Shown here: positions 2,906-59,166 of the stretch, in pieces
How the letters are laid out: each line of letters begins with the position of its first letter
Position numbering within the stretch: the stretch's first letter is position 1
Virus record (IMG/VR): IMGVR_UViG_3300046516_000810
Coordinates: 1 to 59,166 of that record
Reading direction: 5' to 3' (one strand)
DNA: 59,166 nucleotides
DNA from: a virus
Made by a program: the position numbers and the translations under genes
The notes under the pieces: generated by a model
The model's database searches: none
What the model was told of the DNA's origin: nothing
What the model saw: only the letters and a program-made list of their open reading frames with translations

Positions 2906-2908
2906 TTC

Positions 2909-43734: not shown

Positions 43735-43746
43735 GTCGTTCCGCCC

Positions 43747-44237: not shown

Positions 44238-44248
44238 GGTTGCTCCTT

Positions 44249-44617: not shown

Positions 44618-44649
44618 GGTGTTTCTCCTGTTTTTAGGCGGCGTTGAAC

Positions 44650-45279
44650 TCACGCCCCGATGCTGTGGCGAACCATCGCGACGGCATCGGGAAGCGTCAT
44701 TTTCTGAAAGCACCTGATTGTTGACGCGGGGCAGGCGTTCACGACGCTGATGCGGTGCTCGTTGAAGTAGGGCGCATAGACCGCGAAGTGCTCGGCCCAC
44801 TCATCCCACTTCTCACTCTGCTGCTCGCATCCGCCGTTGTAGTCGAAGCCCAGCAGCACGATTGCCCGTGCCTGCTTGTGGATGCAGACCTGCAGCGCCC
44901 CAAAGCCGCTGGTGCCGCCGCCATAGATTTCACTTGGGTCGTCCGACAGGCCGCGACCGTCCATGCGTTTCAGTAGCGTGATGTTCTTCGCGGGCGGTGG
45001 CCCTGCCTGGTCGAGCTGTTCCTCGGGCACGGCCCAATAGACGCGCGTGCGTGTCTCCGCGAGCTTTTCGCGCCATTCCGTGTAGCGCTTCACGTCGAGG
45101 CCGAAGACCGCGTCCGCCCACGGAATGCCGAAGATTTTTCCCTTCACCGCCAGCACATGCGCGCCGCGCAATTGCTCATAGTCGAAACCGATCAGCGACG
45201 GGCCGCCGCCGATGACGACCACCGGCTTGTCGCTCCAGAATGGTTTGTTCACCTTCCCGTACAAAATTCCGTCTCCCAT
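44650..45279 (-). CDS. DUF115/MptE-like protein inserted in the tail operon, 209 aa
   Basis: PVVVIGGGPSLIGFDYEQLRGAHVLAVKG and ADAVFGLDVKRYTEWRE, then YGGGTSGFGALQVCIHKQARAIVLLGFDYNGG, match the DUF115/MptE-like group (GGGPSL, D...F....R....). Related proteins act on pterins or sialic-acid/flagellin-type glycans. It lies between sheath and tube genes, which are normally adjacent. ATG 45279 comes just after the terminator T-run, without a clear ribosome site. Confidence 0.65.
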   Translation of the reverse strand: MGDGILYGKVNKPFWSDKPVVVIGGGPSLIGFDYEQLRGAHVLAVKGKIFGIPWADAVFGLDVKRYTEWREKLAETRTRVYWAVPEEQLDQAGPPPAKNITLLKRMDGRGLSDDPSEIYGGGTSGFGALQVCIHKQARAIVLLGFDYNGGCEQQSEKWDEWAEHFAVYAPYFNEHRISVVNACPASTIRCFQKMTLPDAVAMVRHSIGA

Positions 45280-45283
45280 GATG

Positions 45284-45314
45284 AAAACGGCGCGCACGGC
45301 CTGTATGCGCGCCG
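45284..45314 (-). terminator. Hairpin downstream of the sheath gene
   Basis: On the minus strand CGGCGCGCA (45314-45306) pairs with TGCGCGCCG (45296-45288), a perfect nine-base stem with a nine-base loop, followed by TTTT. It separates the sheath gene from the inserted DUF115-like gene and could reduce transcription of the genes beyond. Confidence 0.6.
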
Positions 45315-45336
45315 TGCCGTTTCAACAACATTTCGA

Positions 45337-46890
45337 TCAGGCGGCGATCGAGGTATCGACGCCCCTGTTGTATTGCAGCCTGAATTGCGCCAGCACGGCG
45401 AATATCCGAAGCTGATTGATGAGGTCGGGCGGATAGAGGACGTTGACCCGGTTCGGGTCGTCAACTGCTCGCTCCACGATGAGGTTCTGCTTGAATGCGG
45501 TCAGGTTCTCGACCCGCCCCAAGAACTCGTCCTGTAGGTACTGCGAGATCAGCTCGGCTTTTATTATCTTCGGCGTCACGATGGCTTGACCGACACCGAA
45601 GCGCGTTCCGTCATCGGCCAGCTTGTGACGCGGATATTTGCTGGTGATCGCATAGCGCTGCGAGCGGAACAGTGCCGCCAGCGTGGCCAGCGTCGGCACC
45701 AGCTCATAGGCATCGTCGCCCTGGCCGTAGAGGTTTTTCTGATAGGTGGTGCTTTCCCGCTTGATCGCCGGCACGCCATCGGCGTTGATCGCCTGCGTGG
45801 CGATGCCGACCCAGGCCAGATCGTTGAGCTGCCGCATGGTGAAGCGCTGATGCTTCGGCGGCGGCAGGCAACCGTCCAGCGAGAGCGTCTGCAACGGACG
45901 CGCCGGATCGTTGACCAGCGCGCGCGCCGCCTTTGCGGTGTAAGCCGCAGCAAAGCACCAGGGCGGGGTGGGCGAGTTCGACTCGATGCCCATGACCGAC
46001 ACGACGCCGCTGTTGTTGTTCGGCCCGTACTGCAACAGATCGGCATAGCCGACAGCATCGCCCGCCGCCGCGACGCCGCGCTTGGCGGCGAAGATGTGTC
46101 CGTAGAGCTGGCGCATCCAGCCCCATCGGCCGTTGTCGCTGAAGCCGTACTCGCCTTCCAGCAACGCGAGCGACGTGCTGTCGGTGTACCCGGTGGCGAC
46201 GTACTCGTAGGGCTCATCGCCCAGGTTCACGAGCGCCTGCGTGATGTCCACATCGCCGGTGCCCGCCGTCAGCTTGTTGGTGGCCGGCAGAGTGATCAGG
46301 AGGCCGATCGGCACCTGCTCGGCCGCGAGCGCGCCGCCATAGGCGAGCCTGACATCGATGTCGTTGCCCTCGACGCCCTTGAACTTGCAGGTGAGATCGA
46401 CCTCGGCAGTAGTTGCAACCGCGGTCACCGGCATCGACGGATCGGCATTGATTGCAGCGGCGATGTTGGTCGCGGTCGTGTCCATCGGCTCGCCCGCAGC
46501 AACAAACACCTGCACCCTGCGGCCGGCGACGTAGACCGGCAGCGTGCCCGCCGCTGTCGCCGCCGCGGTAACCGAGATTTTGCCGGTCGCGGCCACGCCC
46601 GCGGTCGCTTCCTTGATCGGGACCACCCAAAGCTCTTGGGCAAAATTGTTCTGGGTGAACGCCTGCACCATGCCGTCGAGCATCGAGCCGTAACCAAACA
46701 ACTGGCGCGCGTCGGCCTGCGACGGCACCGGCACCGGCACGTCAGGCAACGCGGTGCCGGTCGAAAGCATGGTGCCGATGATCAGTGACGCCAGGCGCGA
46801 GCTTGGATAGCCGGCCATGCTGGGGTCTACTTCCACCCAGTATAGGGGCATGCGCCAGTTGGCTGGGATGCTGTTGAAAGAAACGGGCAT
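45337..46890 (-). CDS. Contractile tail sheath protein (Mu gpL-like), 517 aa
   Basis: VSFNSIPANWRMPLYWVEVDPSMAGY is the diagnostic N-terminus of Mu-type sheath proteins, followed by ATNIAAAINADPSMPVTA and a C-terminal LAQFRLQYNRGVD. CAAGGAGAGCAACA precedes the ATG. It makes the contractile outer tail layer and shows the phage is a myovirus. Confidence 0.9.
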   Translation of the reverse strand: MPVSFNSIPANWRMPLYWVEVDPSMAGYPSSRLASLIIGTMLSTGTALPDVPVPVPSQADARQLFGYGSMLDGMVQAFTQNNFAQELWVVPIKEATAGVAATGKISVTAAATAAGTLPVYVAGRRVQVFVAAGEPMDTTATNIAAAINADPSMPVTAVATTAEVDLTCKFKGVEGNDIDVRLAYGGALAAEQVPIGLLITLPATNKLTAGTGDVDITQALVNLGDEPYEYVATGYTDSTSLALLEGEYGFSDNGRWGWMRQLYGHIFAAKRGVAAAGDAVGYADLLQYGPNNNSGVVSVMGIESNSPTPPWCFAAAYTAKAARALVNDPARPLQTLSLDGCLPPPKHQRFTMRQLNDLAWVGIATQAINADGVPAIKRESTTYQKNLYGQGDDAYELVPTLATLAALFRSQRYAITSKYPRHKLADDGTRFGVGQAIVTPKIIKAELISQYLQDEFLGRVENLTAFKQNLIVERAVDDPNRVNVLYPPDLINQLRIFAVLAQFRLQYNRGVDTSIAA

Positions 46891-46913
46891 TGTTGCTCTC
46901 CTTGTTTGACTGC

Positions 46914-47474
46914 TTACGGTCCTGTCTCGATCTCGTACTCGCGATCGAGCTGCGGAGTGCCGGCATCGGCGTGCGCCTTGTCGGGGAATTGCGTTTGGAT
47001 GCTGATGAGCTTCAGGTCGTCCACAATGGTCGGTGAGAACTGGCTGCGGAACTGGAGGTTCATCTCGACCCTGATTTCATACAAAGTGATCTCGCCCACC
47101 TTCGCGTATTGGCCGACGCGATCCATTTGCGTGCAGCCTTCGGTGAGGTTGAGGAAGCGCGGGTCGCACAGCAGCAGGTCATCGATGCTTGCCATCCATT
47201 CTTCGAGCGCGTGGATTTGGTTCTGCTCGTCGGTCGGGATCTGGACGGCCCCGGAGAATCCCAGCGTCAGATCGTGGATGAACTTCGGCATGGTCTGGTT
47301 GCACTGGCCGTCCGGCAGGCGCTTCTCGCGCAGCAAATGGACCGCGAGCACCGGCAAATGTTCCGGCTGCACCTGCAGCATCGGCGTGATGCGGTAGGTC
47401 TTGAAGGTCGTGCCGAAGCCCGCCTGCAAGAGCGACATCGCCGCGGAGTGGATGGTGTTGGCCCAATGGCTCAT
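46914..47474 (-). CDS. Tail terminator/completion-like protein, 186 aa
   Basis: Position (between head-tail connector and sheath) and pattern (LQAGFGTTFKTYRITPMLQVQPEHLPVLAVHLLREKRLPDG..., TLYEIRVEMNLQFRSQF) suit a tail terminator or neck protein like lambda gpU or gpZ. The start overlaps the previous stop (ATGA). The family call is positional. Confidence 0.5.
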   Translation of the reverse strand: MSHWANTIHSAAMSLLQAGFGTTFKTYRITPMLQVQPEHLPVLAVHLLREKRLPDGQCNQTMPKFIHDLTLGFSGAVQIPTDEQNQIHALEEWMASIDDLLLCDPRFLNLTEGCTQMDRVGQYAKVGEITLYEIRVEMNLQFRSQFSPTIVDDLKLISIQTQFPDKAHADAGTPQLDREYEIETGP

Positions 47475-47875
47475 ACCAAGGGCCTCACGGGCACTGGAGG
47501 TTCATGCGCATACGGGTTGATTTCGTCCTTCGGCTCCTTGAGGCGCAGCAACAACTTGCCGCCGCCCTGGCCGTCGAGATCGAGGTCGCCTATCCAATAC
47601 TGCTTGCCGTAGGCGGGATGCCGCTTGTCGGTGATAGTGACGAAGTCGCCTTCGTCCGGGTACGCGGCAAAGTCGGCCAGCCGGACACAGAGGTCGGTCT
47701 GCTGGTCCGAAAAGATGGTGTCGTCCTGCATGACCACATCGAGCTTGGTCGATGAATAGACGCCATTGACCTTGAACGGGGGCACGCCCGGCTGGCTCGC
47801 TGCTGGCGTGTAAACGACAGCGATCTGGAAAATGTCTCCAGCCGGTTTCAGGACAAGGGCGTCGAAATCGATCAT
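47471..47875 (-). CDS. Head-tail connector-like protein, 134 aa
   Basis: MIDFDALVLKPAGDIFQIAVVYTPAASQPGVPPFKVNGVY and DFAAYPDEGDFVTITDKRHPAYGKQYWIGDLDLDGQGG resemble the FII/stopper-type small beta proteins. It lies just upstream of the terminator-like gene. Confidence 0.55.
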   Translation of the reverse strand: MIDFDALVLKPAGDIFQIAVVYTPAASQPGVPPFKVNGVYSSTKLDVVMQDDTIFSDQQTDLCVRLADFAAYPDEGDFVTITDKRHPAYGKQYWIGDLDLDGQGGGKLLLRLKEPKDEINPYAHEPPVPVRPLV

Positions 47876-47881
47876 GCGGCC

Positions 47882-48235
47882 CTACGGGGTTGATAGTGCG
47901 ATGGCGAGCTTGCAGTCGGTTGTCTGTTTCGTCGGCCTATCGCGGGTTCCAGAGCGCAGCTTGATGAAGCCCACGGTGCGCGCCCACGATCTATCGATGA
48001 TGATTGCTTGATTGGGCCGCGCCACGATCGTTATTTCATGGCCCTCGTCGTCAAACAGGTCGTTGTAGCTGCCGCCGTCCGACGACACCTGAAATGACAT
48101 CACGTTCGGCATGTCGCCGTCGTTGTACTCCTGCGGCACCGTGATGCGGACAATCTGACCCGCGGAGCAATCAACACCGTCCGAAAGGCTTTCGCCCTGC
48201 GTGATCGTCGGCCCGTCTACAACAACAAAGGACAT
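47882..48235 (-). CDS. Hypothetical head-neck protein, 117 aa
   Basis: ATG 48235 follows GGAGG. The protein is beta-rich (VDGPTITQGESLSDGVDCSAGQIVRITVPQEYNDGDMPNV..., NQAIIIDRSW) with no clear family. Its position is that of lambda FI-like genes, between major capsid and connector. Confidence 0.55.
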   Translation of the reverse strand: MSFVVVDGPTITQGESLSDGVDCSAGQIVRITVPQEYNDGDMPNVMSFQVSSDGGSYNDLFDDEGHEITIVARPNQAIIIDRSWARTVGFIKLRSGTRDRPTKQTTDCKLAIALSTP

Positions 48236-48289
48236 CAGTTTATCCTCCAAAAGAACGCGGCATTCACGCCGCGCCAAGGCGTGGGAGTG

Positions 48290-49303
48290 TTAGGTGTGCG
48301 TGGCGCTCTGCAGCGCGAGCGGGCGCGAGCAGAAATTCAGGCCGTTCATCTGGGTGTCGAGGTGGATGCCTTTGTCGTTCGGCATCGGGTACTGCTTGAC
48401 GTAGCGGGGCAGACCCATCGTGTTCACTGTCTCGATGTAGTCGGCCGGCGCGTACACGGTCGGGAACAGATTTGGCACGCCGGTCGGATAGAAATATGCC
48501 TTGTCGGTTTCGACCATCGCGGCGCCCTGCGCATAGCCGCGGTAGTTCGTCCATGAGATGCCGCCGAAAGCGAACGTGCCCCACGACTGGCCGCCGGAGA
48601 TGTACTGTCCGCGCAGCTCGGAGGCGTCCATCATGTTGAGGTAGGTCGCGCGGACTTCCTGCGACATGATCAGCGCGTCGAAGAACGCATCGCCGCAGAT
48701 GGCCTCGACCCCGGTGAAGCCCTGGCCGTCGAGGTTGTTGCCCATCGTTCGGATCAGAGCCGCGCACGCCTGCCGAACGGCTCCGGTCGCGGTCGCGCCG
48801 CTGAGTGGGAAGTTGATCACGCCGGGCGCCGTGATGCCGTACTCGTTGTAGAGATTGAGCGTGGTGCCGTCCGCATAGGTGACGATGCCCTTGATCGCTC
48901 CTACGCGCGCGTGCTCCTGCGTGTACTCCAGCGATTGGCCGGCGATCTGCATGCGCTCGGCCACCTTCGTCATCACCGCTTCGGTGCCCGTCTCCTGCCC
49001 GAAGGGCCGCACGCCCTGCACTTCCTCGGCCATGACGGAGTCGTTGATCTCGAAATGCGGCACGCCCAGCATGCGCAGCGCGCGCCGTGGCTTTGCGATG
49101 GTATGGCCGGGAGCACCGCGCGGGGTCGGCGCAACAAGTGTCAGGATGTTGTTGCGTTCCTCGATTGCCACCGCTGTCTGCGCGATGCTTATCTCGCTGA
49201 ACAAGCCTCTGCCCGAGATGAAGCCGGGGATAAAGATCAGTTTATTGATTGCGAGTGAGAGCGGCACCACACCGAAGCCGTCGCCGCGAAAGATGTCGAG
49301 CAT
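48290..49303 (-). CDS. Major capsid protein (lambda gpE-like), 337 aa
   Basis: The N-terminus (SLAINKLIFIPGFISGRGLFSEISIAQTAVAIEERNNILTLVAP) and GIVTYADGTTLNLYNEYGI, then CGDAFFDALI, follow the lambda gpE (Phage_cap_E) family. It forms the HK97-fold shell. AAAGGAA precedes ATG 49303. Confidence 0.9.
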   Translation of the reverse strand: MLDIFRGDGFGVVPLSLAINKLIFIPGFISGRGLFSEISIAQTAVAIEERNNILTLVAPTPRGAPGHTIAKPRRALRMLGVPHFEINDSVMAEEVQGVRPFGQETGTEAVMTKVAERMQIAGQSLEYTQEHARVGAIKGIVTYADGTTLNLYNEYGITAPGVINFPLSGATATGAVRQACAALIRTMGNNLDGQGFTGVEAICGDAFFDALIMSQEVRATYLNMMDASELRGQYISGGQSWGTFAFGGISWTNYRGYAQGAAMVETDKAYFYPTGVPNLFPTVYAPADYIETVNTMGLPRYVKQYPMPNDKGIHLDTQMNGLNFCSRPLALQSATHT

Positions 49304-49360
49304 TGTCGTGTTCCTTTATCTGCTGCGCCTTTTGCGGCCAGCGCGTTGATGGGTGCTCGC

Positions 49361-50074
49361 TCAGAAGCGGGCGATGATGCCTACGGTCGCGAGGGTGGCC
49401 AGGCCGATTGCCTGCTCGGGCACGGTGATCGCACCCCACTGGATCATGGTGCCGTTGACCTCGGCATTTCTGACCAGCACCGCGATCCGCAGCCCGTTCG
49501 CTGCATTCGATGTTCCGCCGTAGATCGCGATTGCGGTGCAATCGGCGCCCACCGCTGCCGGGACGAACGTGCCCGGCGTGGTCGCGGTCGGCGCCACCGT
49601 CTGCTTCAACGGCTGACCCGGCTTGATCGTGATCGGGTCGGCCAGATACCCATAGGCGCGCGAGATTTGTCCGTTGCCCTCCGAGAGGATGAACTCGGCC
49701 GGGTGCGGGCCTTCGGTCAGCACCGGGAATGATGGATTGCCAGCGAGCAGGTTTATCTGATCGAACTGCTCGGGCGCCAACAGACCTTTGCTCTCGTCAT
49801 CTTCGCGGCGTTGCTCCGGTGACATGGCCGCGCGCTTCTCGTCCTCCTGCAGCCGCTCGGGCGGTGAGAGTGCGGCGCGGCGCTCGTTCTCCTTGCGCTT
49901 GGCCTCCGTGTGCTTCTGCACAAGGTCGCGAAGCCGTTGCTTCTCCTTGTGCTCATCGGCACGGCGCTTTTCCTCAGCACGGAATTGCTCGTCGGCCTGC
50001 TGCTTCGCGTCGTGCTGCGGCTTCGGGTCGTGCCTTGCGGCGGGCTGCCTGTGCTCCTGCCTTTCGTCGCTCAT
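49361..50074 (-). CDS. Head decoration protein (lambda gpD-like) with N-terminal charged arm, 237 aa
   Basis: Residues 120-237 are gpD-like (HPAEFILSEGNGQISRAYGYLADPITIKPGQPL..., GGTSNAANGLRIAVLVRNAEVNGTMIQW). Residues 1-110 are an added Glu/Lys/Arg/Gln-rich helical arm (EQFRAEEKRRADEHKEKQRL, EAKRKENERRAALSPPERL). Normal gpD is about 110 residues long. The arm looks like a scaffold or coiled coil. AAGGAG precedes the ATG. Confidence 0.8.
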   Translation of the reverse strand: MSDERQEHRQPAARHDPKPQHDAKQQADEQFRAEEKRRADEHKEKQRLRDLVQKHTEAKRKENERRAALSPPERLQEDEKRAAMSPEQRREDDESKGLLAPEQFDQINLLAGNPSFPVLTEGPHPAEFILSEGNGQISRAYGYLADPITIKPGQPLKQTVAPTATTPGTFVPAAVGADCTAIAIYGGTSNAANGLRIAVLVRNAEVNGTMIQWGAITVPEQAIGLATLATVGIIARF

Positions 50075-50095
50075 ATTCGAGACTCCTTCCTGGGT

Positions 50096-51109
50096 TCACT
50101 TCTTGAGCCGGGCGTTGATCTTGTCGGTGATCTTCGACCACGACGACGCAGCGGCTTGCGCTGGCGGCACAAGCGGGTGGTGTGGCATCACCACCGGTTC
50201 CTCGGCCCGCTTTGCCAGCAACTCCTTGCGGACCTGATCGAGCGGCGTGTTGGTGCGCACGTAGGCGCCCACGCGTTCCGGCGCGGCGGCGAGCGTGCAG
50301 AGGTCGGTGACGCTGGCCACGTAGGCGCGATGTTCCTCGACCCCTTGCTGCTTGGCGGCGTCCAGCGTGATGACCTTCGCGGAAGGTTGTTGCGGCGGCT
50401 CGACCACCGGCGCCGGCTTTGGCTGCGCGGGATCTGTCGCCGGCTCGGCCGGCTTGTCCTCGGGCTCGTCCTCGGGCTCGTCCTCCGGGTCGCCTGCTGC
50501 AGCTCGAAACCTCTCTGCTGCCGCCGTGGGCAACAGGCGCAGCGGGAATTTCGCCGCCATCTTGACCGGCTCGGTGACCTCATCCGCATAGCCGAGCTTC
50601 AATGCTTCGTCGGCGTCCATCAGCCGATCTTCTTTCATCAGCGTCTTGACCTTGGCGGTCGTGCTTTTCGAGCGCGCCGCGTAGGTCGCGGTGAGCGACT
50701 TGTCGATGCGATCGAGATCGTCGGCTAACGCGCGCACGGTGTCGGAGCTGCCGTAAGCAAATCCCGATGCGCCGTGGATCAGCATGAAGCTGTTCGAGGG
50801 CATCACGATCTTGTCGGCCGCCATCACGATGAAGGACGCCGCCGACGCCGCGATGCCATCGACATGCGCGGTCACCGTGGCCTTGTGGTTCTTGATCGCG
50901 TTGTGGATTGCCACGCCATCGAACACGTCGCCGCCGGGCGAGTTGACGCGCAGCGTGATGTTATCGACCTCGCCCAGCGCATCGAGATCAGCAACAAATT
51001 GCTTGGCGCTTACGGTGTCCTCGCCCCAGAACGATTTGCCGATCTCGTCGTAGATGACGATCTCCGCGGTCTTGTCCTCGGCGGCTTTCATCGTGAACCA
51101 TTGGCGCAT
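50096..51109 (-). CDS. ClpP-type prohead protease, 337 aa
   Basis: RVNSPGGDVFDGVAIHNAIKN, GIAASAASFIVMAADKIVM (Ser89) and FMLIHGASGFAYG (His112) are the Clp-protease catalytic core. The final 120 residues are Pro/Ala/Glu-rich and basic, perhaps scaffold-like (EDEPEDEPEDKPAEP). It is the prohead maturation protease (lambda gpC position). GGGAG precedes ATG 51109. Confidence 0.85.
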   Translation of the reverse strand: MRQWFTMKAAEDKTAEIVIYDEIGKSFWGEDTVSAKQFVADLDALGEVDNITLRVNSPGGDVFDGVAIHNAIKNHKATVTAHVDGIAASAASFIVMAADKIVMPSNSFMLIHGASGFAYGSSDTVRALADDLDRIDKSLTATYAARSKSTTAKVKTLMKEDRLMDADEALKLGYADEVTEPVKMAAKFPLRLLPTAAAERFRAAAGDPEDEPEDEPEDKPAEPATDPAQPKPAPVVEPPQQPSAKVITLDAAKQQGVEEHRAYVASVTDLCTLAAAPERVGAYVRTNTPLDQVRKELLAKRAEEPVVMPHHPLVPPAQAAASSWSKITDKINARLKK

Positions 51110-51121
51110 TGCTGTTGCTCC

Positions 51122-52702
51122 CTACGCTGCTGCGGCTTCGTCGGCGGCGTCCTGCGCCGCTTGGTCGGCGGCGTCCGCGGCATCCTGCTGTGCTTGATCG
51201 GCCGCAGCCTGATCGCTCGGGGACATCGGCTGCGTGGGGGCGCAATAAACAACCGGGAAAATCAGATCGAGGCTTTCCTCGCGCTCCTTGTCGGCTGCAA
51301 TGCGCCGGTCGGTTTCCTCCGGGTCGGTGCCCTCGGCCTCGACCACGTCGCTGCGTGATTTGAAGCCAGCGTCCACCGCAAGCTTTTCAGCCTGACGATC
51401 CTTCAGCGGATCGACCCAATCGTTGCGCTGCGGTATCCATTTGGCACGCTGAAAGGTGACCTGATCCGCCAGATAGGCGCTCGCCTCGATCGGGATTGCC
51501 TGCGCGAGCACGGCTGTATCCAGCCAGCGTTTCCAGATCGGCCGGCACATCTGAAACACGATGATGTTGTGCTGGAACTGTTCCAGCTTGCGCCGAAACT
51601 CCACGATCGAGCCGCGCAGCGATGAGTAGTTCGCCCGCCGCAAGTCTGACGTGACGACCGAATAGGGCATGCCGAGCCCACCAAACAAAGCGAGCTGCTG
51701 CCGGTACTGATATGCCTCGTAGGCGCCGCCGACATCGGCCGGCTCGGAGAACTTGATGTCCTCGCCGGGCAGCAGCGTTTGCATGGTGCCCGGCTCTAGG
51801 CCGCTCAACCCGATATTGTCCTGCTGCGCGCTGTCATCGATGCCGTCGATCGGGACCACGTCCTCGGGGGTCGCGGTGGTGATGAAGCCGGCGAACATCG
51901 CCGCGATGCGTTTGCGCTCCAGCTCGGCGTCGTCGTACTGATCGAGCAGGAACATGCGCACCAGCGCGGGCGTGATCAGGGGAACGCCGCGCATCTGGCC
52001 GGGCCGGGTGCATTTGAAGATGTGCAAGACCTCGGAAGCCGGAACGCGCACCGGCCACAATGTTCCGTGCGGCTCGATCGGCACGTCGCCCGGATGCACC
52101 GGATAGAACCAATAGGCTGCGCGCTTGCCCAGCATATCAAGCTCGACACCGTTCATGATCCAGTTGCCGTTCGGCGCCTGCTGGTTGAACCAGTACGGGC
52201 ACATTTCGCTTTCGAGCAATTGGACCTGCAGCGGCACCGTGTAGCCGTCTTCGACCTTGCGATTGCGGAAGCGCACAAAGCATTCGCCGGCTTCAAACAG
52301 CGCCCGCGCCACAATTGTTTGCATGCCGTAGAAGTCCGCGATCTCGTCGGCGTCCGCCTCGTCCGTCCAATCCATGAAAAGCTGCATGACCTGTTCGCGC
52401 AGGTCCGGCTGATCGGTGAGCAGCGACGAAGGCTTGACGCCGGTGCCGATGAGGTTGGCGACGAAGCTGTCACAGGCCGCGTTGGCGTGCGGGTTGTTGC
52501 GCAGCGCGTCGCGCGCGCGCGAGCGCAGGAGCGCGCCGGTCGCGGACATGATGACGTTGGTGGTGTACTGCGTCGGCATCCACGACTTGAGCCGCCGCCG
52601 CTGGCCGGCGCCGTCGAAATAGTAGTTGCTTGCCGACTTGTTGGTGCGCGAGACGAAGCGCCCCAAGATGCCTTCTGACAGGAGGTCGCGGACCAAGCCC
52701 AT
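51122..52702 (-). CDS. Portal protein (lambda gpB-like), 526 aa
   Basis: SWMPTQYTTNVIMSATGALLRSRARDALRNNPHANAACDSFVANLIGTGVKP and YWFNQQAPNGNWIMNGVELDMLGKRAAYWFYPVHPGD, then EASAYLADQVTFQRAKWIPQRNDWVDPLKD match lambda-family portals. The C-terminus is Ala/Asp/Gln low-complexity (DQAAADQAQQDAADAADQ). It forms the DNA-packaging dodecamer. Confidence 0.9.
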   Translation of the reverse strand: MGLVRDLLSEGILGRFVSRTNKSASNYYFDGAGQRRRLKSWMPTQYTTNVIMSATGALLRSRARDALRNNPHANAACDSFVANLIGTGVKPSSLLTDQPDLREQVMQLFMDWTDEADADEIADFYGMQTIVARALFEAGECFVRFRNRKVEDGYTVPLQVQLLESEMCPYWFNQQAPNGNWIMNGVELDMLGKRAAYWFYPVHPGDVPIEPHGTLWPVRVPASEVLHIFKCTRPGQMRGVPLITPALVRMFLLDQYDDAELERKRIAAMFAGFITTATPEDVVPIDGIDDSAQQDNIGLSGLEPGTMQTLLPGEDIKFSEPADVGGAYEAYQYRQQLALFGGLGMPYSVVTSDLRRANYSSLRGSIVEFRRKLEQFQHNIIVFQMCRPIWKRWLDTAVLAQAIPIEASAYLADQVTFQRAKWIPQRNDWVDPLKDRQAEKLAVDAGFKSRSDVVEAEGTDPEETDRRIAADKEREESLDLIFPVVYCAPTQPMSPSDQAAADQAQQDAADAADQAAQDAADEAAAA

Positions 52703-52703
52703 G

Positions 52704-53117
52704 CTAGAGCCCTTTGTCCGCTTGCATGGTCATCCTGATCTGACGGATGCGCCCGCCGAATCCGAGCGCCGCCGCCAAATCCTGCTTGAGGTCGTCAAGG
52801 ATTTGCCGCAGGTCGGACAGCGACCGGAATTCGGTGCGCTTGTCGCCGTAGCCGGCGCTGTTGACGCCCGACGAGATGAGCTGCGTGATCTGGGCGATCT
52901 GCCCGGCAATGACCACCGGATCGTTCGATGGCATCGGCGGCAATGGCAGCGAGCTTGGTGCCGGCCGGCGCGGCGGCACCTGCATGGTCTTTGCCGGTTG
53001 CTCATCCGGTCGAGCTGCGCCAGCTACCTCTTGCACGAACGGGCTTGACGGCAACGCCGCAAGCTCGGACTGCAACGCGGCGATCCTGGCCTGCAAGTCT
53101 TCGCGATTGGATGGCAT
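52704..53117 (-). CDS. gpW-like head-completion protein, 137 aa
   Basis: Residues 1-25 form a helix (LQARIAALQSELAALP), and a Pro-rich linker is followed by AQITQLISSGVNSAGYGDKRTEFRSLSDLRQILDDLKQDL, which resembles the gpW fold (helix, GVxxvxydgrxvefxs, helix). It sits exactly where lambda gpW is, between gpA and gpB. Confidence 0.6.
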   Translation of the reverse strand: MPSNREDLQARIAALQSELAALPSSPFVQEVAGAARPDEQPAKTMQVPPRRPAPSSLPLPPMPSNDPVVIAGQIAQITQLISSGVNSAGYGDKRTEFRSLSDLRQILDDLKQDLAAALGFGGRIRQIRMTMQADKGL

Positions 53118-53129
53118 TCGGAAGCCACG

Positions 53130-55166
53130 TTAGGCCCCGAGATAGCTCGATCTGATAATGCGCCTGACCCTGCGGGTGCGCGATAATGGCGATGGAATGG
53201 GCGGCGCTTCGGTCGAAGCCACTGTCTCGGTTTGGGTTTCCGGCTGCCTGCCAATTTCCTCCTTAGTCCCATCTTTCTTGTTTTGCAATGGGATGCGCTG
53301 CACGTTCAGCAAATAGCCGGCGGCTGCCTGCATCGCCTCGCAGTCAAAAAAGTGGTTGTCGCGCGATCGCTGGACCCATTCGACGCGCCCGGTTGGCTGT
53401 TTGATGCGCGCCTCGCTGACGAGCTGGTGGCAGTAATCATCGTCCACGCCGCGGAACACATGCCAGCCGCCGAGGTGGGCGTCGGGCCACCTAAGTCTTT
53501 CATGTACCCAGCTTTTCCAGTGATCGGTGTCGAGCCGCACGAGGTCGAGCCCGTACTTGGCCGCGCGCCCGTCTTTGCGGCTGACCTCGATCTTGTTCAG
53601 GATCAGCGGGGTTCGCATCGGGGTGCTCGACCCCTTGGTGGGGCGCACGCGCCGTGGGAAGCGCCGGCAGAACTCGTAAACGCGATTGAGCGGCAGCATG
53701 TCGATCTTGCCGGGCCGGAATCCCGAATCGATGAATGCCAACCTGATCGGCAAGCCGCCGACCGGCTGCACCACCAGATCGGCCAGCGCGAGCCAGATGT
53801 CTTCCTCGGCGGTGTCGCCGCGCAGATACCCGTACTCGATCAGCCATGAGGTCGCGCGCGCGCCCCATCCGCGCAGCACCCACGGAATCGAATGCCGCTG
53901 CACGTCGCACGCCAGCGTCAGATAGAGCACGTCCGCCGGCACTTCGCCGCGCTTGTAGGTGGCCTGTCGGGATTTCTCCTTGATCTCGACCCACTCGGGA
54001 ACCTCGCCGCCGCCGGGTGAATACAGCTCGCCAAAGCCGGCGTTGATGGCCTGCTGCACCATCGCGTCGTCGCCCGACTGCTGCGCCTCGACCAGCACCG
54101 CGACCCGCTCTCCGAACGTGACGAATGGTGATGCCAGCCCCGACACCCAGAACGAGATGGTTTTGCTTTCGGCCGGCGCGCCATGCACCACGCCGCTCTT
54201 GTCGATGTTCTGGCCCGGCGCCGCATAGCGCCCGCGCGCGTTCATGTCGGCCTTGTGCTGGTCCTCGATGACGCCGGCACAGTGCGGGCATTCCAAGAAT
54301 GTTTCGCGTGCGGCTTCGAGCGGCCGGGCCTTGAGCGGATAGCGCAGGAGGTTGAAGCGCGGCACGAAAAATTCGCCGCACCAGGGACATGGCCAGCACC
54401 AGTGATGCCGCGTGCCTTGCTGCCAGAGCTGCCAGATCGGACTCTCGATGTCCTCGGCCACGGCGATGTCCCAGAAGCACAGACCGGAAATTTCATCCTT
54501 GGTCGCGGCCACTCTGCCGCGTTTGGGCGTGGAGGTCACGACACAAACAAAGTCAGCGAAGGTGTCGCCGCGGCGCTCGACCAGGCCAAGCGGCCCGCCC
54601 TGCTGATTCACGTTGTCGCGCATCTCGTCGTATTCATCGACCAACGCGAGGACTGCCGGATCGGATTTGAGTGCGGTGCTAGATCCCGAATGCGCCAAGC
54701 GGAACGGCACGCCGGCCACCACCTTGCGGGTCTTGGTCATGCGCTTGCCGCGCGCCACCTTCGCCATGAGGGTTGGCGCCTCGTCCAGCAGCGCCATCAC
54801 GCGCGGCTCGAATTGCTCGGTGAGGAATTGCTTGTTGGGGCCGACATAGAGGATCGGCCCCGGCCGCTGGTCGAGCCGCTGCCCGGCCACATCGAGCATT
54901 GCTTCGCTCTTGCCGGATTGCGCGCCCATCACCATGACGACGCGCTTGTAGGCGCCGCTGGCGATGGCGCGCTCGGGCTCGACCACGTAGGGCGTTAGGA
55001 GCGGATCACGCGGCCCCGGAACCGCTGCCGTTGCCGGATATGTCCTGTTGGCCGCCGCCCACTGGTCCGGCTCCATCGGCTCCGATGGCATCATCAAGCC
55101 CGCGAACCGTCTCCAAGCGAACGGCCTGTGCCAGTGCGTGCTCTGCGATCCTACGAAGTCTTGCAT
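53130..55166 (-). CDS. terL: Terminase large subunit (lambda gpA family), 678 aa
   Basis: VVMVMGAQSGKSEAML is the Walker A motif, VLALVDEYDEM the Walker B, and CPWCGEFFVPRF and CPHCAG are the Cys pairs seen in gpA-type terminases. The nuclease region (RLAFIDSGFRPGKIDM) carries the acidic site. ATG 55166 has GGGAGG close upstream but overlaps terS by 161 bases; ATG 55094 is an alternative. It packages DNA, usually at cos sites in this family. Confidence 0.9.
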   Translation of the reverse strand: MQDFVGSQSTHWHRPFAWRRFAGLMMPSEPMEPDQWAAANRTYPATAAVPGPRDPLLTPYVVEPERAIASGAYKRVVMVMGAQSGKSEAMLDVAGQRLDQRPGPILYVGPNKQFLTEQFEPRVMALLDEAPTLMAKVARGKRMTKTRKVVAGVPFRLAHSGSSTALKSDPAVLALVDEYDEMRDNVNQQGGPLGLVERRGDTFADFVCVVTSTPKRGRVAATKDEISGLCFWDIAVAEDIESPIWQLWQQGTRHHWCWPCPWCGEFFVPRFNLLRYPLKARPLEAARETFLECPHCAGVIEDQHKADMNARGRYAAPGQNIDKSGVVHGAPAESKTISFWVSGLASPFVTFGERVAVLVEAQQSGDDAMVQQAINAGFGELYSPGGGEVPEWVEIKEKSRQATYKRGEVPADVLYLTLACDVQRHSIPWVLRGWGARATSWLIEYGYLRGDTAEEDIWLALADLVVQPVGGLPIRLAFIDSGFRPGKIDMLPLNRVYEFCRRFPRRVRPTKGSSTPMRTPLILNKIEVSRKDGRAAKYGLDLVRLDTDHWKSWVHERLRWPDAHLGGWHVFRGVDDDYCHQLVSEARIKQPTGRVEWVQRSRDNHFFDCEAMQAAAGYLLNVQRIPLQNKKDGTKEEIGRQPETQTETVASTEAPPIPSPLSRTRRVRRIIRSSYLGA

Positions 55167-55743
55167 TGACCTCCCGCTCGATGATCCGGCGCAGCGTCAG
55201 GTCGCGGGTGGCTGCCGCCGGCAATCCCGCGAACTCGCTTCTTACCACGCCCGCGAAGCTGTCGATCATTTCCTCGTAGATTTCGAGTGGGACCAAACGA
55301 CTGAGCCGCTGCCGGGTGCGAACCTCGATCTCGTGTGCCTTGGCATCGCGCATGCGGCTGTCGCTGGCGGATTTCGATGTCTTGCGGTCCTGATCGCGCA
55401 GCCAGCGGACATAACTCTGATTGGCTTCAAACCAATTGTATTGGCCCTTGCGCCCCGCGGCCTTCAGCCAGCCTTCAGCAACAAATTGCGAGATGCGCGA
55501 GACGGCGAGGCCCCAACAACGTGCGAGCGTGGCGCTATCGGTGAGCTGCGCGGTGTCGCGCGCGGCCTTGGCGAAGCCGCGGATGAGATCGGCCAGCCGC
55601 CAACTGTCCTTGCCGATCGGCTTGATGTAGCCGGCGCGCTGCAATTTTCTCAATTCGTCGGGGTGCTCCATCAATAGGAGCGACATCGCCAAAGCTGTCG
55701 AAACGGTCCCGGCTTCGGTTTTCGAAGGCTCATTTTCGGCCAT
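55006..55743 (-). CDS. Terminase small subunit, Nu1-like, 245 aa
   Basis: WGLAVSRISQFVAEGWLKAAGRKGQYNWFEANQSYVRWLRDQDR is the MerR/Nu1-type winged HTH, and KAHEIEVRTRQRLSRLVPLEIYEEMIDSFAGVVRSEFAGLPA the central helical part. It recognises the packaging site. It is the first gene of the late leftward operon, 70 bases from the TATAAT promoter candidate. Confidence 0.8.
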   Translation of the reverse strand: MAENEPSKTEAGTVSTALAMSLLLMEHPDELRKLQRAGYIKPIGKDSWRLADLIRGFAKAARDTAQLTDSATLARCWGLAVSRISQFVAEGWLKAAGRKGQYNWFEANQSYVRWLRDQDRKTSKSASDSRMRDAKAHEIEVRTRQRLSRLVPLEIYEEMIDSFAGVVRSEFAGLPAAATRDLTLRRIIEREVNARLRRIAEHALAQAVRLETVRGLDDAIGADGAGPVGGGQQDISGNGSGSGAA

Positions 55744-55813
55744 TTTGGCCCCTTTCCCAGGGCTACAGCCCCCGATTGAACGATTTTTCCCAATATGAAC
55801 TAAAGATTGAAAA

Positions 55814-55819
55814 ATTATA
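55814..55819 (-). promoter_or_regulatory. TATAAT -10 box of the late leftward operon
   Basis: The minus strand reads GGGGTATAATTTTTC, with a perfect TATAAT at 55819-55814. No good -35 lies 17-18 bases upstream (GCCAAA), so an activator may be needed. It points at terS (start 55743). The divergent accessory promoter starts only a few bases away. Confidence 0.5.
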
Positions 55820-55823
55820 CCCC

Positions 55824-55895
55824 AAAAAATGATAAGTTTGGCTTTACTGCGTGCAGGCGGTTGCTACTGTTTTCAGGACGGTCGGGCACGGAGCC
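55824..55895 (+). promoter_or_regulatory. Phage promoter element, copy 1
   Basis: The block CAAAAAATGATAAG...GGCACGGAGCC is about 85% identical to 57779-57851. It contains CTTTAC (55842-55847), a 17-base spacer and TACTGT (55865-55870), resembling alphaproteobacterial CTTGAC-N17-type promoters. It drives the amidoligase gene (ATG 55916). The conserved downstream part (ACGGTCGGGCACGGAGCC) would be in the transcript leader. Confidence 0.65.
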
Positions 55896-55915
55896 CCACC
55901 CCCCAGGAGCCTAAA

Positions 55916-56950
55916 ATGCACCCCTCTCTCTCTACTCTTACATTCGGCGCCGAATTCGAAATACTTTCGCCCCTCGATCGCGAGCCAATCGCCCGCCGCG
56001 TTTCCGAAATTTCGGGCCTTCCGGTTTACAGCGGTTTCGGCAATTGCCCTAGCGACTCTTGGAAGATCGTTCGCGACGGCTCGATTCGGGGCAACGGCTA
56101 CGGTTTCGAATTTGTCGCCCCGGTTCTCTCCGGCGATGCCGGCTTAGAGCAAGTCGCCAAAATTGCACAAGCGCTTAACGCGGCGGGTTGCACCGTCAAT
56201 ACCACGACCGGTTTTCACGTTCACGTCGGCGCCCCTACAAATAGCATCGGTTTCTTTCAAGACCTCCTGAAACTATACGGCCGATTCGAAGACTCGCTCG
56301 ACCAAATCATGCCGCCAAGCCGGCGCGGGAACGATGCGACTTATTGCAAGTCGGTCAAACTTACCGATAAGGAGGCAATCGATTCGGCTACTTCTGTGCG
56401 GGCGCTTTCCACCGCTCTTGCGCGCGCATCGGGCGCACATGCCGGCCGGTATCACAAGGTTAATATCGAGGGGCTGCATTCGAAAGACGCTAATCGTTCC
56501 GGCCCGCGGACGGTTGAATTTCGCCAACATGCCGGAACGGTAAACGCGGACAAGGCAATCAATTGGATCACGATTTGCCTGCGCTTAGTTGCGGCGGCCA
56601 AAGCCGGCAAGACCGGCGCCGGCCCGGCCATCGCCCGCGATTTCTCCCGACTCGACGCAAAGGCGCGTGCGGTTGCGGAGGCGGTCGCCAAGCCGGAAGG
56701 CGCGACGGCCGAAGAAATCAGGGCCGCGCATGGGTTCCGCGCGCTTTCAATCAAACGTCAAGCCGCGGTCGCAGGCTTGGAGGTTCGCGTGGTCAAGTCG
56801 CGCGGCAAGGAGCGGTTTTTTCTCGTCGCACAAGTTGCGCCGGGCGCCACGGTGCCGGCCACGCTTGACGGCCTTTTCGAGGTCATCGACGCGACCCCCG
56901 AGGAAGCTGCCTTCCTGCGGTCGCGCGCGCAACGGTCAGCCGCCCTCTAA
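55916..56950 (+). CDS. Amidoligase-family enzyme, 344 aa
   Basis: FGAEFEI (E13, E15), TGFHVHVG (H101, H103) and RTVEFRQHAGT (E201-H205) are the metal- and ATP-binding signatures of the amidoligase (COOH-NH2 ligase, glutamine-synthetase fold) family. Such enzymes make amide bonds between carboxylates and amines in peptides or metabolites. A C-terminal extension (residues about 250-344) holds a winged-helix-like or toroid region. CAGGAGC precedes ATG 55916. It is directly followed by a cyclotransferase gene. Confidence 0.85.
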   Translation: MHPSLSTLTFGAEFEILSPLDREPIARRVSEISGLPVYSGFGNCPSDSWKIVRDGSIRGNGYGFEFVAPVLSGDAGLEQVAKIAQALNAAGCTVNTTTGFHVHVGAPTNSIGFFQDLLKLYGRFEDSLDQIMPPSRRGNDATYCKSVKLTDKEAIDSATSVRALSTALARASGAHAGRYHKVNIEGLHSKDANRSGPRTVEFRQHAGTVNADKAINWITICLRLVAAAKAGKTGAGPAIARDFSRLDAKARAVAEAVAKPEGATAEEIRAAHGFRALSIKRQAAVAGLEVRVVKSRGKERFFLVAQVAPGATVPATLDGLFEVIDATPEEAAFLRSRAQRSAAL

Positions 56951-56967
56951 GGGCGGTTCTCTTTTTT
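56940..56967 (+). terminator. Terminator overlapping the amidoligase stop
   Basis: CCGCCC (56940-56945), loop TCTAA, GGGCGG (56951-56956), then TTCTCTTTTTT. The TAA stop codon lies inside the loop, so ribosomes reaching the stop would cover the stem and could reduce termination. The cyclotransferase gene lies beyond it. Confidence 0.7.
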
Positions 56968-57003
56968 CCCATAACCAACAATCAAAAATCAGGAGCAATC
57001 AAC

Positions 57004-57687
57004 GTGCTGTATTTCGCCTACGGGTCAAACCTTCACAAGGATCAGATGTCGCGGCGTTGCCCGGCCGCGGAACCGCTCGGCCCGCTTATCCTTCGCGACA
57101 CCCGACTCGTTTTTCGCGGCGTTGCCGATGTGATCCACGCGCCCGGCTTCGAATGCCGCGGCGGCATCTGGCGAATCACGCCAGCGTGCGAGGCTGCGCT
57201 CGATCGCTATGAAGGCTACCGACCGGATGGTGGCGGCATGTACGCGAAAGAGTATGTCGAGATTGCTGGCCTGCCGGATGGTGAGACGGAGATCATGCTC
57301 TACACGATGAACTCGACCGGCATCTATCCGCCTTCGGATTACTACTACGCGGTGCTGCAGGAGGGTTATCGGGATTTCGGCTTGAAGCAAGCCGGACTCA
57401 AGGCGGCGCTTGAGCATTCCTACGCGGACAAGCGCCCCTCACATATCGAGCGCAAGCGCACGCGTCGGATGGGGCGCCCCGCGCTGGCGCCTCGTCCAGC
57501 GCTCCAATCAAGCAAGCCGGCGGCAAAGCCGCGCAAGCCACACGGCATGGTGCAGGAGCCGCCGAAAGCGAAGCTGACCTATCACGATCCGTGGGCCGCG
57601 GACGTGCCGGCGGAACAGCGGCGCCGCAAGGTGATGAACCTCACCGATTGGCTGCGCGATCGAGCATCCGGCGGCGATCGATACTGA
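57004..57687 (+). CDS. Gamma-glutamylcyclotransferase-like protein, 227 aa
   Basis: YFAYGSNLHKDQM (Y6-L10) is the substrate-binding loop of the GGCT/AIG2 fold, and ALDRYEGY places the catalytic Glu at E70. The core ends near residue 150. A Lys/Arg/Pro-rich tail with RKVMNLTDWLRDRA follows. It would cleave gamma-glutamyl amides to 5-oxoproline, undoing or tuning bonds made by the amidoligase next door. It starts with GTG after CAGGAGCAATCAAC. Confidence 0.85.
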   Translation: MLYFAYGSNLHKDQMSRRCPAAEPLGPLILRDTRLVFRGVADVIHAPGFECRGGIWRITPACEAALDRYEGYRPDGGGMYAKEYVEIAGLPDGETEIMLYTMNSTGIYPPSDYYYAVLQEGYRDFGLKQAGLKAALEHSYADKRPSHIERKRTRRMGRPALAPRPALQSSKPAAKPRKPHGMVQEPPKAKLTYHDPWAADVPAEQRRRKVMNLTDWLRDRASGGDRY

Positions 57688-57710
57688 ACGGGCAGATGCA
57701 ATCAATACAA

Positions 57711-57740
57711 CCCCGGCGGGGCTGTTTCGCCGGGGAATTT
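57711..57740 (+). terminator. Terminator after the cyclotransferase
   Basis: CCCCGGCG (57711-57718), nine-base loop, CGCCGGGG (57728-57735), then AATTTTATTG. It lies 45 bases upstream of the second promoter element, so the amidoligase/cyclotransferase pair forms a closed unit. Confidence 0.6.
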
Positions 57741-57778
57741 TATTGTTTCGATTGCTAATCATTGAAATTTTCTCCTAC

Positions 57779-57851
57779 CAAAAATGATAAGTTTGGCTTT
57801 ACTGCGTGCAGGGCTTGGCTACTGTTTTTCCAGACGGTCGGGCACGGAGCC
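57779..57851 (+). promoter_or_regulatory. Phage promoter element, copy 2
   Basis: This repeats the element at 55824: CTTTAC (57797-57802), a 17-base spacer and TACTGT (57820-57825), then ACGGTCGGGCACGGAGCC. It drives the 58-aa gene and probably the DUF6011-like and Imm-like genes beyond. Confidence 0.65.
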
Positions 57852-57877
57852 GCGACCAAAGAGCAGGAGCAAGCCAA

Positions 57878-58054
57878 ATGTACTCGGTCAATTTCATCAA
57901 TTTCGGCTATTCGCGCCAATTCGCCACGCTTGGCGAGGCGGTTGAAGCCGCGCGCAAGGCGGGTTTCGAGTCCTCGATCACACTCGCGGGCGCCCTCTAC
58001 GCGACTTTCAGCCCCATCAGCGGGTTGAGCCACAAGCGGCCCGCCGCGGTCTAA
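57878..58054 (+). CDS. Small protein, 58 aa
   Basis: ATG 57878 follows CAGGAGCAAGCCAA. FINFGYSRQFATLGEAVEAARKAGFESSITLAGALYATFSP suggests a small helix-strand protein. It is the first gene behind promoter copy 2, so it is likely to be strongly and early expressed. No family is recognised. Confidence 0.7.
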   Translation: MYSVNFINFGYSRQFATLGEAVEAARKAGFESSITLAGALYATFSPISGLSHKRPAAV

Positions 58055-58082
58055 TTCCAACCAAACAACAGGAACAATCAAA

Positions 58083-58709
58083 ATGTACGCGTACATCAAA
58101 CTAAACGACCAATGGTGCGTCCGCTCGACGGACGCGAATTCCGCCGGCCAGACGGTTTCGGTCACGAAGCGGAATGGTGCATCGAAACAGGTGCAGCTCG
58201 GCGCCAAGGTTGGCGAGGGATTTTCCCAAACCTACTACGCGATTGCGGAGCGGCCGGCGCCAGCCGCGCAAAATGTTGGCGACCTCTCCGCCATCATGCG
58301 GCTTTTCGACAACGTCCGCGCCGCGCAACCGAACCGCCGCAAGCCGCCGGCCATCGTTTTCACCGACTACCGAATCAACGTCGCAGGCGACCGCGCGCGC
58401 GAGCCGGGATGCTTGACCATCACAAGCCCCGACAAAGGTTTCGACGGGCGCCGCAAGTGGCTCGGCCGAATCACACGGGCCGGCCAATTCGAGCCCGCGC
58501 GCGACACCGATCCGGCACTAGGCGACAAGCTTCGAGCATTCGCCGCCGACCCGGCCGGCGTGGCCGGCGCCCACGGCCGGCTCACCCACAATTGCTGCTT
58601 CTGCAACGCGGCGCTGACTGACGAGCGCTCGAAGCTGGTCGGCTACGGCCCGGTGTGCGCCGACAATTTCGGCCTCCCGTGGGGCGAGCGGTCCGCGCAA
58701 GCCGCCTAA
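58083..58709 (+). CDS. DUF6011-like zinc-binding protein, 208 aa
   Basis: CCFCNAALTDERSKLVGYGPVCADNFGLPW at residues about 172-201 is the DUF6011 Cys motif (C.FC...LTD..S...GYGP.CA...GLPW), which probably binds zinc. The first 100 residues (LNDQWCVRSTDANSAGQTVSVTKRNG...) look like an OB or SH3-like beta domain. The function of the family is unknown. Confidence 0.7.
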   Translation: MYAYIKLNDQWCVRSTDANSAGQTVSVTKRNGASKQVQLGAKVGEGFSQTYYAIAERPAPAAQNVGDLSAIMRLFDNVRAAQPNRRKPPAIVFTDYRINVAGDRAREPGCLTITSPDKGFDGRRKWLGRITRAGQFEPARDTDPALGDKLRAFAADPAGVAGAHGRLTHNCCFCNAALTDERSKLVGYGPVCADNFGLPWGERSAQAA

Positions 58710-58723
58710 ATCCAACAACACGC

Positions 58724-58747
58724 CCGCGGCCCACTACCGGGCCGCGG
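58724..58747. terminator. GC-rich hairpin before the Imm-like gene
   Basis: CCGCGGCCC (58724-58732), loop ACTACC, GGGCCGCGG (58739-58747). No T-run follows. It lies between the DUF6011-like and Imm-like genes. Confidence 0.45.
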
Positions 58748-58777
58748 CCCTTCAATCAAACAACAGGAGCAAGCCCA

Positions 58778-59002
58778 ATGTTAACGCTTATGCTGATCAT
58801 CATTTACCTACTGCCTGCTGTGGTCGCGAACTTTCGAGGGCACCAACACCTGATGCCGATCTTCCTGCTGAACCTGTTGCTCGGCTGGACGATCCTCGGT
58901 TGGGTTGGTGCGCTTGTTTGGTCGGCCATGCCGGTCCCCACCACCACCACCGCCGACAAGCCGCTAACCGGCCGATACGTCACAACCGTTTACAAGAAAT
59001 AA
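58778..59002 (+). CDS. Superinfection immunity protein (T4 Imm-like), 74 aa
   Basis: LIIIYLLPAVVANFRGHQHLMPIFLLNLLLGWTILGWVGALVWSAM is the full Imm_superinfect (T4 Imm-like) domain: two membrane helices linked by a basic loop (ANFRGHQHL). T4 Imm blocks DNA injection by later phages. CAGGAGC precedes the ATG. In a temperate phage it may also protect lysogens. The left copy carries an eight-residue C-terminal deletion. Confidence 0.85.
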   Translation: MLTLMLIIIYLLPAVVANFRGHQHLMPIFLLNLLLGWTILGWVGALVWSAMPVPTTTTADKPLTGRYVTTVYKK

Positions 59003-59166
59003 GGAGCAATCAACCATGCGTTTCCGTCTGATGACTTCGCAAACCTCCAACGGGCAGACGCCGATCAAGCAAGGCCGGCGCTATGTCGGCAGCGTGCGGC
59101 GTGCCGAGAACGGCATCGACTACGTTGGCCGCATCGGTGTCCATGCCGCCACCGCCCCGCTGCCTG
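58857..59166. repeat. Right copy of the terminal redundancy
   Basis: This is the longer variant of the repeat at 1-287. It contains ACGTCACAACCGTTTACAAG plus AAAT, which is missing at the left end, and lacks one A before ATG 59016. Confidence 0.95.
59016..59166 (+). CDS. Hypothetical Arg-rich protein, N-terminal part
   Basis: This is the 5' part of the gene seen complete at 137-472, cut by the end of the window. The leader reads AAGGAGCAATCAACC. The encoded N-terminus (MRFRLMTSQTSNGQTPIKQG) is the same as in the left copy. Confidence 0.8.
   Translation, partial: MRFRLMTSQTSNGQTPIKQGRRYVGSVRRAENGIDYVGRIGVHAATAPLP

Follow-up and report, generated by a model that had tools for sequence, protein, structure and literature searches.

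A linked amidoligase and gamma-glutamyl cyclotransferase gene pair, with a predicted winged-helix domain on the ligase, beside the terminase genes of a phage

The DNA analyzed here (the window) is a virus record of 59,166 bp, in which a gene for an amidoligase and a gene for a gamma-glutamyl cyclotransferase lie adjacent and co-oriented, separated by a gap of 53 nt. We tentatively favor the explanation that these genes constitute a two-gene accessory conflict module acting on some host target, in which it would remodel an amide of the gamma-glutamyl type, and, within that same tentative explanation, that the carrier would be a temperate phage of a presumably Bradyrhizobium-like soil bacterium. 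The two genes and the domain fused to the ligase are as follows:

55916-56950, plus strand: amidoligase gene, 344 aa, with an Amidoligase_2 domain (residues 7-225) and a predicted C-terminal winged-helix domain
56606-56947, plus strand: amidoligase C-terminal domain (residues 231-344), from the AF2 model and DUF3489 matches of homologous domains
57004-57687, plus strand: gamma-glutamyl cyclotransferase gene (GGCT-type), 227 aa, from PF06094, a human GGCT match and the model

Two contigs (L003 and L006) bridge the end of the window to its start with an imperfect overlap of about 290 nt; because they join end to start, the window is circularly permuted, and it is probably nearly a whole genome. 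The window encodes a tyrosine integrase, a portal of lambda type and a terminase of gpA type. The terminase genes point leftward, and immediately to their right the gene pair opens a series of rightward genes. Positions 40001-59166 had no near DNA match in the annotated phage collection. Elsewhere in the window, a TAGT glycosyltransferase gene (TET-associated, E 2.2e-12) adjoins a sulfotransferase-like gene at 2291-3793 on the minus strand, and an MT-A70 methyltransferase gene (E 2.4e-23) is found at 9314-9931, also on the minus strand.

The amidoligase gene starts at the ATG at 55916, which is preceded by CAGGAGCC, and its product matches PF12224 (Amidoligase_2) with 98.7 bits (E 6.6e-28; curated cut-off 22) over profile positions 2-245 of 245; the reading frame, coordinates, start codon and family given for this gene in a preliminary description of the DNA all hold. 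The protein was assigned to phrog_2443, and the cyclotransferase to phrog_2520. All 48 aligned amidoligases share E13, E15, H101, H103 and E201, together with D54, E65 and R203, and we take these eight residues to be the presumed counterparts of the metal and ATP ligands of glutamine synthetase. This alignment (A4) holds 48 of the 63 dereplicated rows, the 15 left out being mostly the most divergent ones (the incomplete L054, L052 and 13 divergent rows). The catalytic residues named earlier are thus retained with the exception of H205, a position at which H occurs in 30 of the 48 sequences, F in 15 and another residue in 3. For the AF2 model of the amidoligase (pLDDT 91.4), structural alignment gave a Z of up to 13.0 against glutamine synthetases (212 residues, rmsd 3.6), of 12.3 against GmaS (218 residues, rmsd 4.1) and of 11.9 against YbdK (227 residues, rmsd 4.8), and the matches returned by Foldseek were of the glutamine synthetase fold (best E 4.6e-5). 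The model supports a predicted glutamine-synthetase/GCS fold for the catalytic domain, which it would share with the YbdK/GCS2 carboxylate-amine ligases, GmaS and glutamine synthetase; identity to YbdK, GmaS and glutamine synthetase in the structural alignments is 7-18%. No sequence relative of the amidoligase was found in the PDB at E<=1, and NCBIfam supplied no name at E<=0.1.

Beyond the catalytic part, the model contains helices at residues 248-257, 265-272 and 279-285, strands at 289-295 and 298-304, and then two further helices, with a pLDDT of 92-97 for residues 251-300, 72 for residues 301-310 and 92-96 beyond. Of 21 homologous C-terminal domains, 20 gave a DUF3489 (PF11994) match at E<=0.1 (best 1e-7); the domain of the window itself scored 16.7 bits (E 0.008), below the curated cut-off of 29.5, and is not counted as a member of the family. 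From the model and these matches, the amidoligase C-terminus reads as a DUF3489-like winged helix-turn-helix, for which DNA binding is predicted. The winged-helix domain is present in 21 of the 26 amidoligases that are at least 36% identical to that of the window (the window included). No function is given for DUF3489 in the portions of open-access literature found. Both proteins had previously been described as ending in basic tails; this is correct for the cyclotransferase, where the tail has a net charge of +12 over 82 aa, and is ruled out for the amidoligase by the folded domain in the model and by the last 34 aa, which are acidic (net charge +5 over the C-terminal 114 aa). A second, separate winged-helix (DUF3489-like) profile match was observed downstream of the cassette in one relative (L033:8553-8762).

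The cyclotransferase gene starts at a GTG at 57004, preceded by AGGAGC, and its product matches PF06094 with 34.8 bits (E 2.8e-8; curated cut-off 22.8), in agreement with the frame, coordinates, GTG start and family first given for it. The protein consists of a catalytic part (approximately residues 1-145) and the basic tail (residues 146-227), with a predicted helix at 213-222 near the end of the tail. The YGSN loop and the catalytic E70 that had been proposed are unvarying in 26 of 26 aligned cyclotransferases (alignment A5, from which L052 and the incomplete L007 were left out), and E70 aligns to E98 of human GGCT. The nearest PDB sequence is human GGCT (2pn7, E 7.2e-9), and human GGCT (3cry, E 1.3e-10) is also the best Foldseek match of the model, which has a pLDDT of 87.7, with 54-72 in the outer tail; the predicted cyclotransferase fold is supported by these matches. 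Fold, YGSN loop and catalytic Glu are common to human GGCT (C7orf24, 3CRY) and the phage protein, which differs from the human enzyme in its basic tail; in 11 of 27 phage members this tail has an [LI]xxWL motif.

Linkage of the two genes was examined for 63 amidoligases, dereplicated and drawn from viral as well as genome contigs; 26 of them, including that of the window, form the set at 36% identity or more (25 on viral contigs and one, L012, in the genome of Bradyrhizobium sp. BRP22). In 25 of these 26, the amidoligase gene is closely followed by a co-oriented cyclotransferase gene at a distance of 13-737 nt, and the sole unlinked relative is L042, for which 5.9 kb downstream are covered. 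The preliminary description had named homologues in which the genes are never linked as evidence that would count against it, and the reverse was found at this level of identity. Among the amidoligases below 36% identity, a downstream cyclotransferase was found in 3 of 37 in the stretch examined, some of these stretches having little room, and a whole-record search of 49 records, mostly from this more distant set and also taking in L042, L046, L049 and L050, found PF06094 anywhere in 15. Among 397 genomes sampled from the bacterial order to which BRP22 belongs, 21 have Amidoligase_2; PF06094 occurs at some position in 18 of these, and the domains are adjacent only in BRP22 (1 of 21), 0.65 kb apart. 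In one phage contig, an ORF resembling, by a motif seen by eye, what is presumably an HNH-type endonuclease lies between the amidoligase and cyclotransferase genes (L010:4983-5453), and both genes stay open.

Presence of the pair was also scored beside terL, using profiles built for this analysis and the best 80 of 122 terminase relatives. Upstream sequence of 2.5 kb or more is present in 54 of these contigs, several of which represent the same phage; of the 54, 23 hold both genes, 31 hold neither and none holds a single one; all 23 pair-bearing contigs also hold the winged helix, and the 31 without the pair hold none. The other 26 of the 80 loci have less than 2.5 kb upstream and were left out of this count: L114, L116 and L141 hold both genes, L120 and L140 hold an amidoligase at the contig end, and 21 hold neither. 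In 10 of the 80 relatives, the site of the pair is occupied by an AAA_5 ATPase gene, followed in 8 of the 10 by genes for an uncharacterized protein and for a DUF2201 metallopeptidase/VWA protein; in the remaining 2 the contig ends first. The complete AAA_5/unknown/DUF2201-VWA cassette lies upstream of terL in L126, L128, L129, L131, L136, L143, L150 and L164, and in the stretches examined the AAA gene was absent from all 47 loci that bear an amidoligase, both sets containing near-copies. The presence of an AAA/VWA alternative at the same site therefore marks it as an accessory slot. A MoxR-VWA pair with such a peptidase in jumbo phages is proposed, in a published account available in part, to be a virion-assembly chaperone. 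A terL tree of 36 chosen rows, obtained by a quick search with near-copies and all loci below 60% identity left out, requires at least 6 changes among amidoligase, AAA and neither; for the amidoligase label alone it requires 5 changes, 2 of which are forced by well-supported branches.

The amidoligase itself differs sharply between the window and a near-identical relative, L007. Across the terminase genes, most 100-nt bins are 98-100% identical, with one bin at 95% and a 60-nt gap near the end of terL, and the 273 nt of the cyclotransferase gene that could be compared are identical; the amidoligase genes, by comparison, are about 70% identical in the catalytic part and 76-89% in the C-terminal part, with gaps. 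Both alleles appear to be under purifying selection, because dN is 0.174 and dS is 0.741 over the gene. The simplest reading of these sequence comparisons is that an allelic replacement would account for the difference; L007 is a 5-kb metagenomic contig and may be a mosaic assembly, although it agrees with the window on either side of the divergent part. A resembling case is that of L032 and L141, where terL is 94% identical, the amidoligase 49% and the cyclotransferase 65%. More broadly, the ligase is less identical than the cyclotransferase in 218 of 230 pairs, and amidoligase and cyclotransferase distances correlate after terL is accounted for (partial r 0.46, n 21, permutation p 0.0001) and after terS is accounted for (partial r 0.35, n 22, permutation p 0.0001). 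In comparisons of the window and L007 with L010, L011, L012 and L023, the catalytic domain diverges faster than the winged helix; as a general rule this was rejected, the winged helix being more alike in only 34 of 135 pairs.

The intergenic and flanking features of the region are as follows:

55800-55895, plus strand: first copy of the promoter-like element, ahead of the amidoligase gene, containing AATGATAAGTTTGGCTTTACTGCGTGCAGG and repeated at 57755-57851
56938-56958, plus strand: terminator-like hairpin 1, on the amidoligase stop codon and between the genes, followed by CTCTTTTTT
57711-57735, plus strand: terminator-like hairpin 2, after the cyclotransferase gene (z -2.4; 3 of 200 shuffles as low)
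57755-57851, plus strand: second copy of the promoter-like element, in front of the rightward genes that follow the pair, repeating copy 1
57879 (ATG), plus strand: small ORF, the first of the next rightward genes after element copy 2
58083-58709, plus strand: gene for a DUF6011 protein, in the next rightward operon

The pair had been described as a closed cassette with one dedicated promoter and one terminator, and this description does not survive: a terminator-like hairpin lies inside it, and the element taken as its promoter recurs before the next operon, beginning 67 nt past the cyclotransferase stop. The 46-nt stretch of hairpin 1 folds at -16.1 kcal/mol (z -4.2), an energy reached by none of 200 shuffles, and the region as a whole has 5 terminator-like sites against a shuffle mean of 5.9, which is no excess. 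Hairpins between the genes recur in several relatives; since a T-run follows (by eye) only in the window, L007 and L018, conservation of intergenic termination is unsupported. The two element copies share an identical 30-nt core (0 matches in 100 shuffles), and the strict core pattern occurs 2 times in the window against 0.35 expected; no sigma-70-type site in the region scored above the tool threshold.

Similar elements lie upstream of several homologous amidoligases. Paired elements flank the cassette in 12 of 25 tested winged-helix phages, the window included, with p <= 0.007 in every case, whereas none of 7 phages that lack the domain has such a pair; this test compared the 116 nt before the amidoligase ribosome site with up to 1.5 kb after the cyclotransferase gene (300 shuffles each), with L007 and other incomplete loci left out and downstream stretches of 409-1500 nt. 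The copies are alike within one phage and differ between phages. Gene conversion would be a sufficient cause of this likeness, because the upstream copy of L007 equals the downstream copy of the window at 56 of 56 nt. Palindromes such as GGCGCATATATGCGTC were observed near the expected -10 box upstream of the amidoligase gene in L144, L154, L156, L033, L027 and L039, and their placement, judged by eye, suggests an operator over a promoter. A ribosome-site leader is also repeated before four genes (56979-57007, 57853-57881, 58058-58086 and 58753-58781), the reference being CAACCAAACAACAGGAACAATCAAAATGT and the other copies 76-83% identical to it.

The roles suggested for such pairs reportedly originate in a comparative analysis by Iyer et al. 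in 2009, as cited by later papers. Pairs of phage amidoligase and cyclotransferase genes have themselves already been published for several phage groups on the basis of genome annotation, as the accessible parts of five papers indicate (PMC5513430, PMC11318856, PMC11253131, PMC10945688, PMC5498523), and a suggestion made there for similar pairs is a change of the cell wall or surface against superinfection. The window pair resembles PHROG 2443 and 2520 phage pairs in that the same two families are phage-borne and adjacent or a few genes apart; examples in the accessible text are Arthrobacter cluster AL genes 97/98, the Terrisporobacter prophage TPDSL_ph1, the Clostridium LM41 prophages and the Christensenellales phage PV036419. 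The best phage matches are 36% identical over 62% of the query for the amidoligase and 39.5% over 71% for the cyclotransferase, and four phage records are common to the two match lists. In Arthrobacter cluster AL, the cyclotransferase gene (gene 97, called cyclotransferase in the portion of the paper available and hypothetical in the record) precedes the amidoligase gene, and a glutamine amidotransferase gene is next. The RIO-1/phiEco32-like podoviral cassette (PMC5498523, accessible in part) also contains an amidoligase and a gamma-glutamyl cyclotransferase, with a proposed surface change; however, it comprises seven genes including ATP-grasp and amidotransferase genes, whereas the window has two, and no ATP-grasp or glutamine amidotransferase gene was found beside the pair among 23 scanned of about 70 predicted genes. 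Unlike the published phage pairs, that of the window has the winged-helix fusion and the flanking pair of elements. New here are this fusion, the paired elements, the allele at about 70% identity (catalytic part) and the alternative AAA/VWA cassette; no report of any of the first three was found in the open-access literature, outside which most subscription journals lie, and the same open-access literature yielded no proven substrate for phage pairs.

In the explanation that we tentatively favor, the first protein would be an ATP- and metal-dependent ligase that joins an amine to a carboxylate, the acceptor most likely being the gamma-carboxyl of a glutamate-type residue, and the second a GGCT-type cyclotransferase that would split gamma-glutamyl amides and free 5-oxoproline; such an enzyme could therefore take off or shorten what the ligase would attach through a bond of this kind. 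The pair would then rewrite a gamma-glutamyl-type amide, most likely in a peptide part of the envelope or on a small metabolite, in a setting of host takeover or of action against competing phages. The enzyme classes and tight linkage of the preliminary description are borne out by the profiles, the conserved residues and the 25 linked relatives of 26, and the make-and-break gamma-glutamyl cycle that it implied can fairly be read from the pair. We infer the chemistry of the two enzymes, a shared substrate and a conflict role; the envelope as target would follow by analogy. A conflict role is favored because of the accessory position, the gain and loss of the pair and the divergent allele. Evidence against this explanation is that no peptidoglycan amidotransferase or ATP-grasp gene was found among 23 scanned of about 70 predicted genes, and that 34 of the 37 amidoligases below 36% identity are without a downstream cyclotransferase in the stretch examined, some having little room. 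PADLOC yielded no family at E<=0.1 for either protein, such that neither was recognized as part of a known defence system, a result that is neutral for the conflict role.

Gamma-glutamyl amino acids are substrates of GGCT, and this counts toward a purely metabolic use of the pair, in which it would make and recycle gamma-glutamyl compounds in auxiliary nitrogen and amino-acid metabolism, with no conflict role. The infected cell would in that case be fed glutamate, amino acids or 5-oxoproline. Such a role is argued, in the accessible part of an eLife 2024 paper, for a phage of planctomycetes whose genes include those for an amidoligase and a gamma-glutamylcyclotransferase. However, a divergent ligase allele between near-identical phages is unusual for plain metabolism, as is a ligase that is less identical than the cyclotransferase in 218 of 230 pairs, and the ligase bears the predicted winged helix; we regard the metabolic reading as unlikely.

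The predicted winged helix-turn-helix fused to an enzyme raises another explanation, which we consider more doubtful still: the amidoligase would be a trigger enzyme that binds the flanking elements, with the state of its substrate setting transcription of its own and the next operon. The occurrence of paired elements in 12 of 25 domain-bearing phages and in 0 of 7 without the domain is consistent with this; however, 13 of the 25 have no element pair at that threshold, the association of element and domain follows phylogeny, the downstream stretches vary in length, and gene conversion could make the copies track each other, as between L007 and the window. A composite of these ideas, in which the amidoligase would be both ligase and DNA-binding regulator, reading the elements and coupling a gamma-glutamyl substrate to transcription while its catalytic domain is exchanged as a specificity module, ranks lower again and appears improbable. 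The TAGT glycosyltransferase and sulfotransferase-like genes at 2291-3793 would accord with DNA modification, in which the ligase, guided by the winged helix and in concert with the TAGT glycosyltransferase, would couple an amine or an amino acid to a base that is already modified. These genes, however, are on the opposite strand and, measured through the circular join, about 3.5 kb away from the cassette; a scan of 23 of about 70 predicted window genes showed neither TET/JBP nor a base hydroxymethylase, and no link was found from the cyclotransferase to DNA, which together leave this reading very improbable.

For the phage lineage to which the window belongs, the tentatively favored conflict module comes with handles in the form of different ligase alleles in near-identical phages, relatives without the pair and a pair-bearing Bradyrhizobium genome, and a further one is the putative DNA-binding domain fused to the ligase, together with the matching elements that flank the pair. 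The lineage handles therefore make the substrate question and the regulatory hypothesis directly testable.
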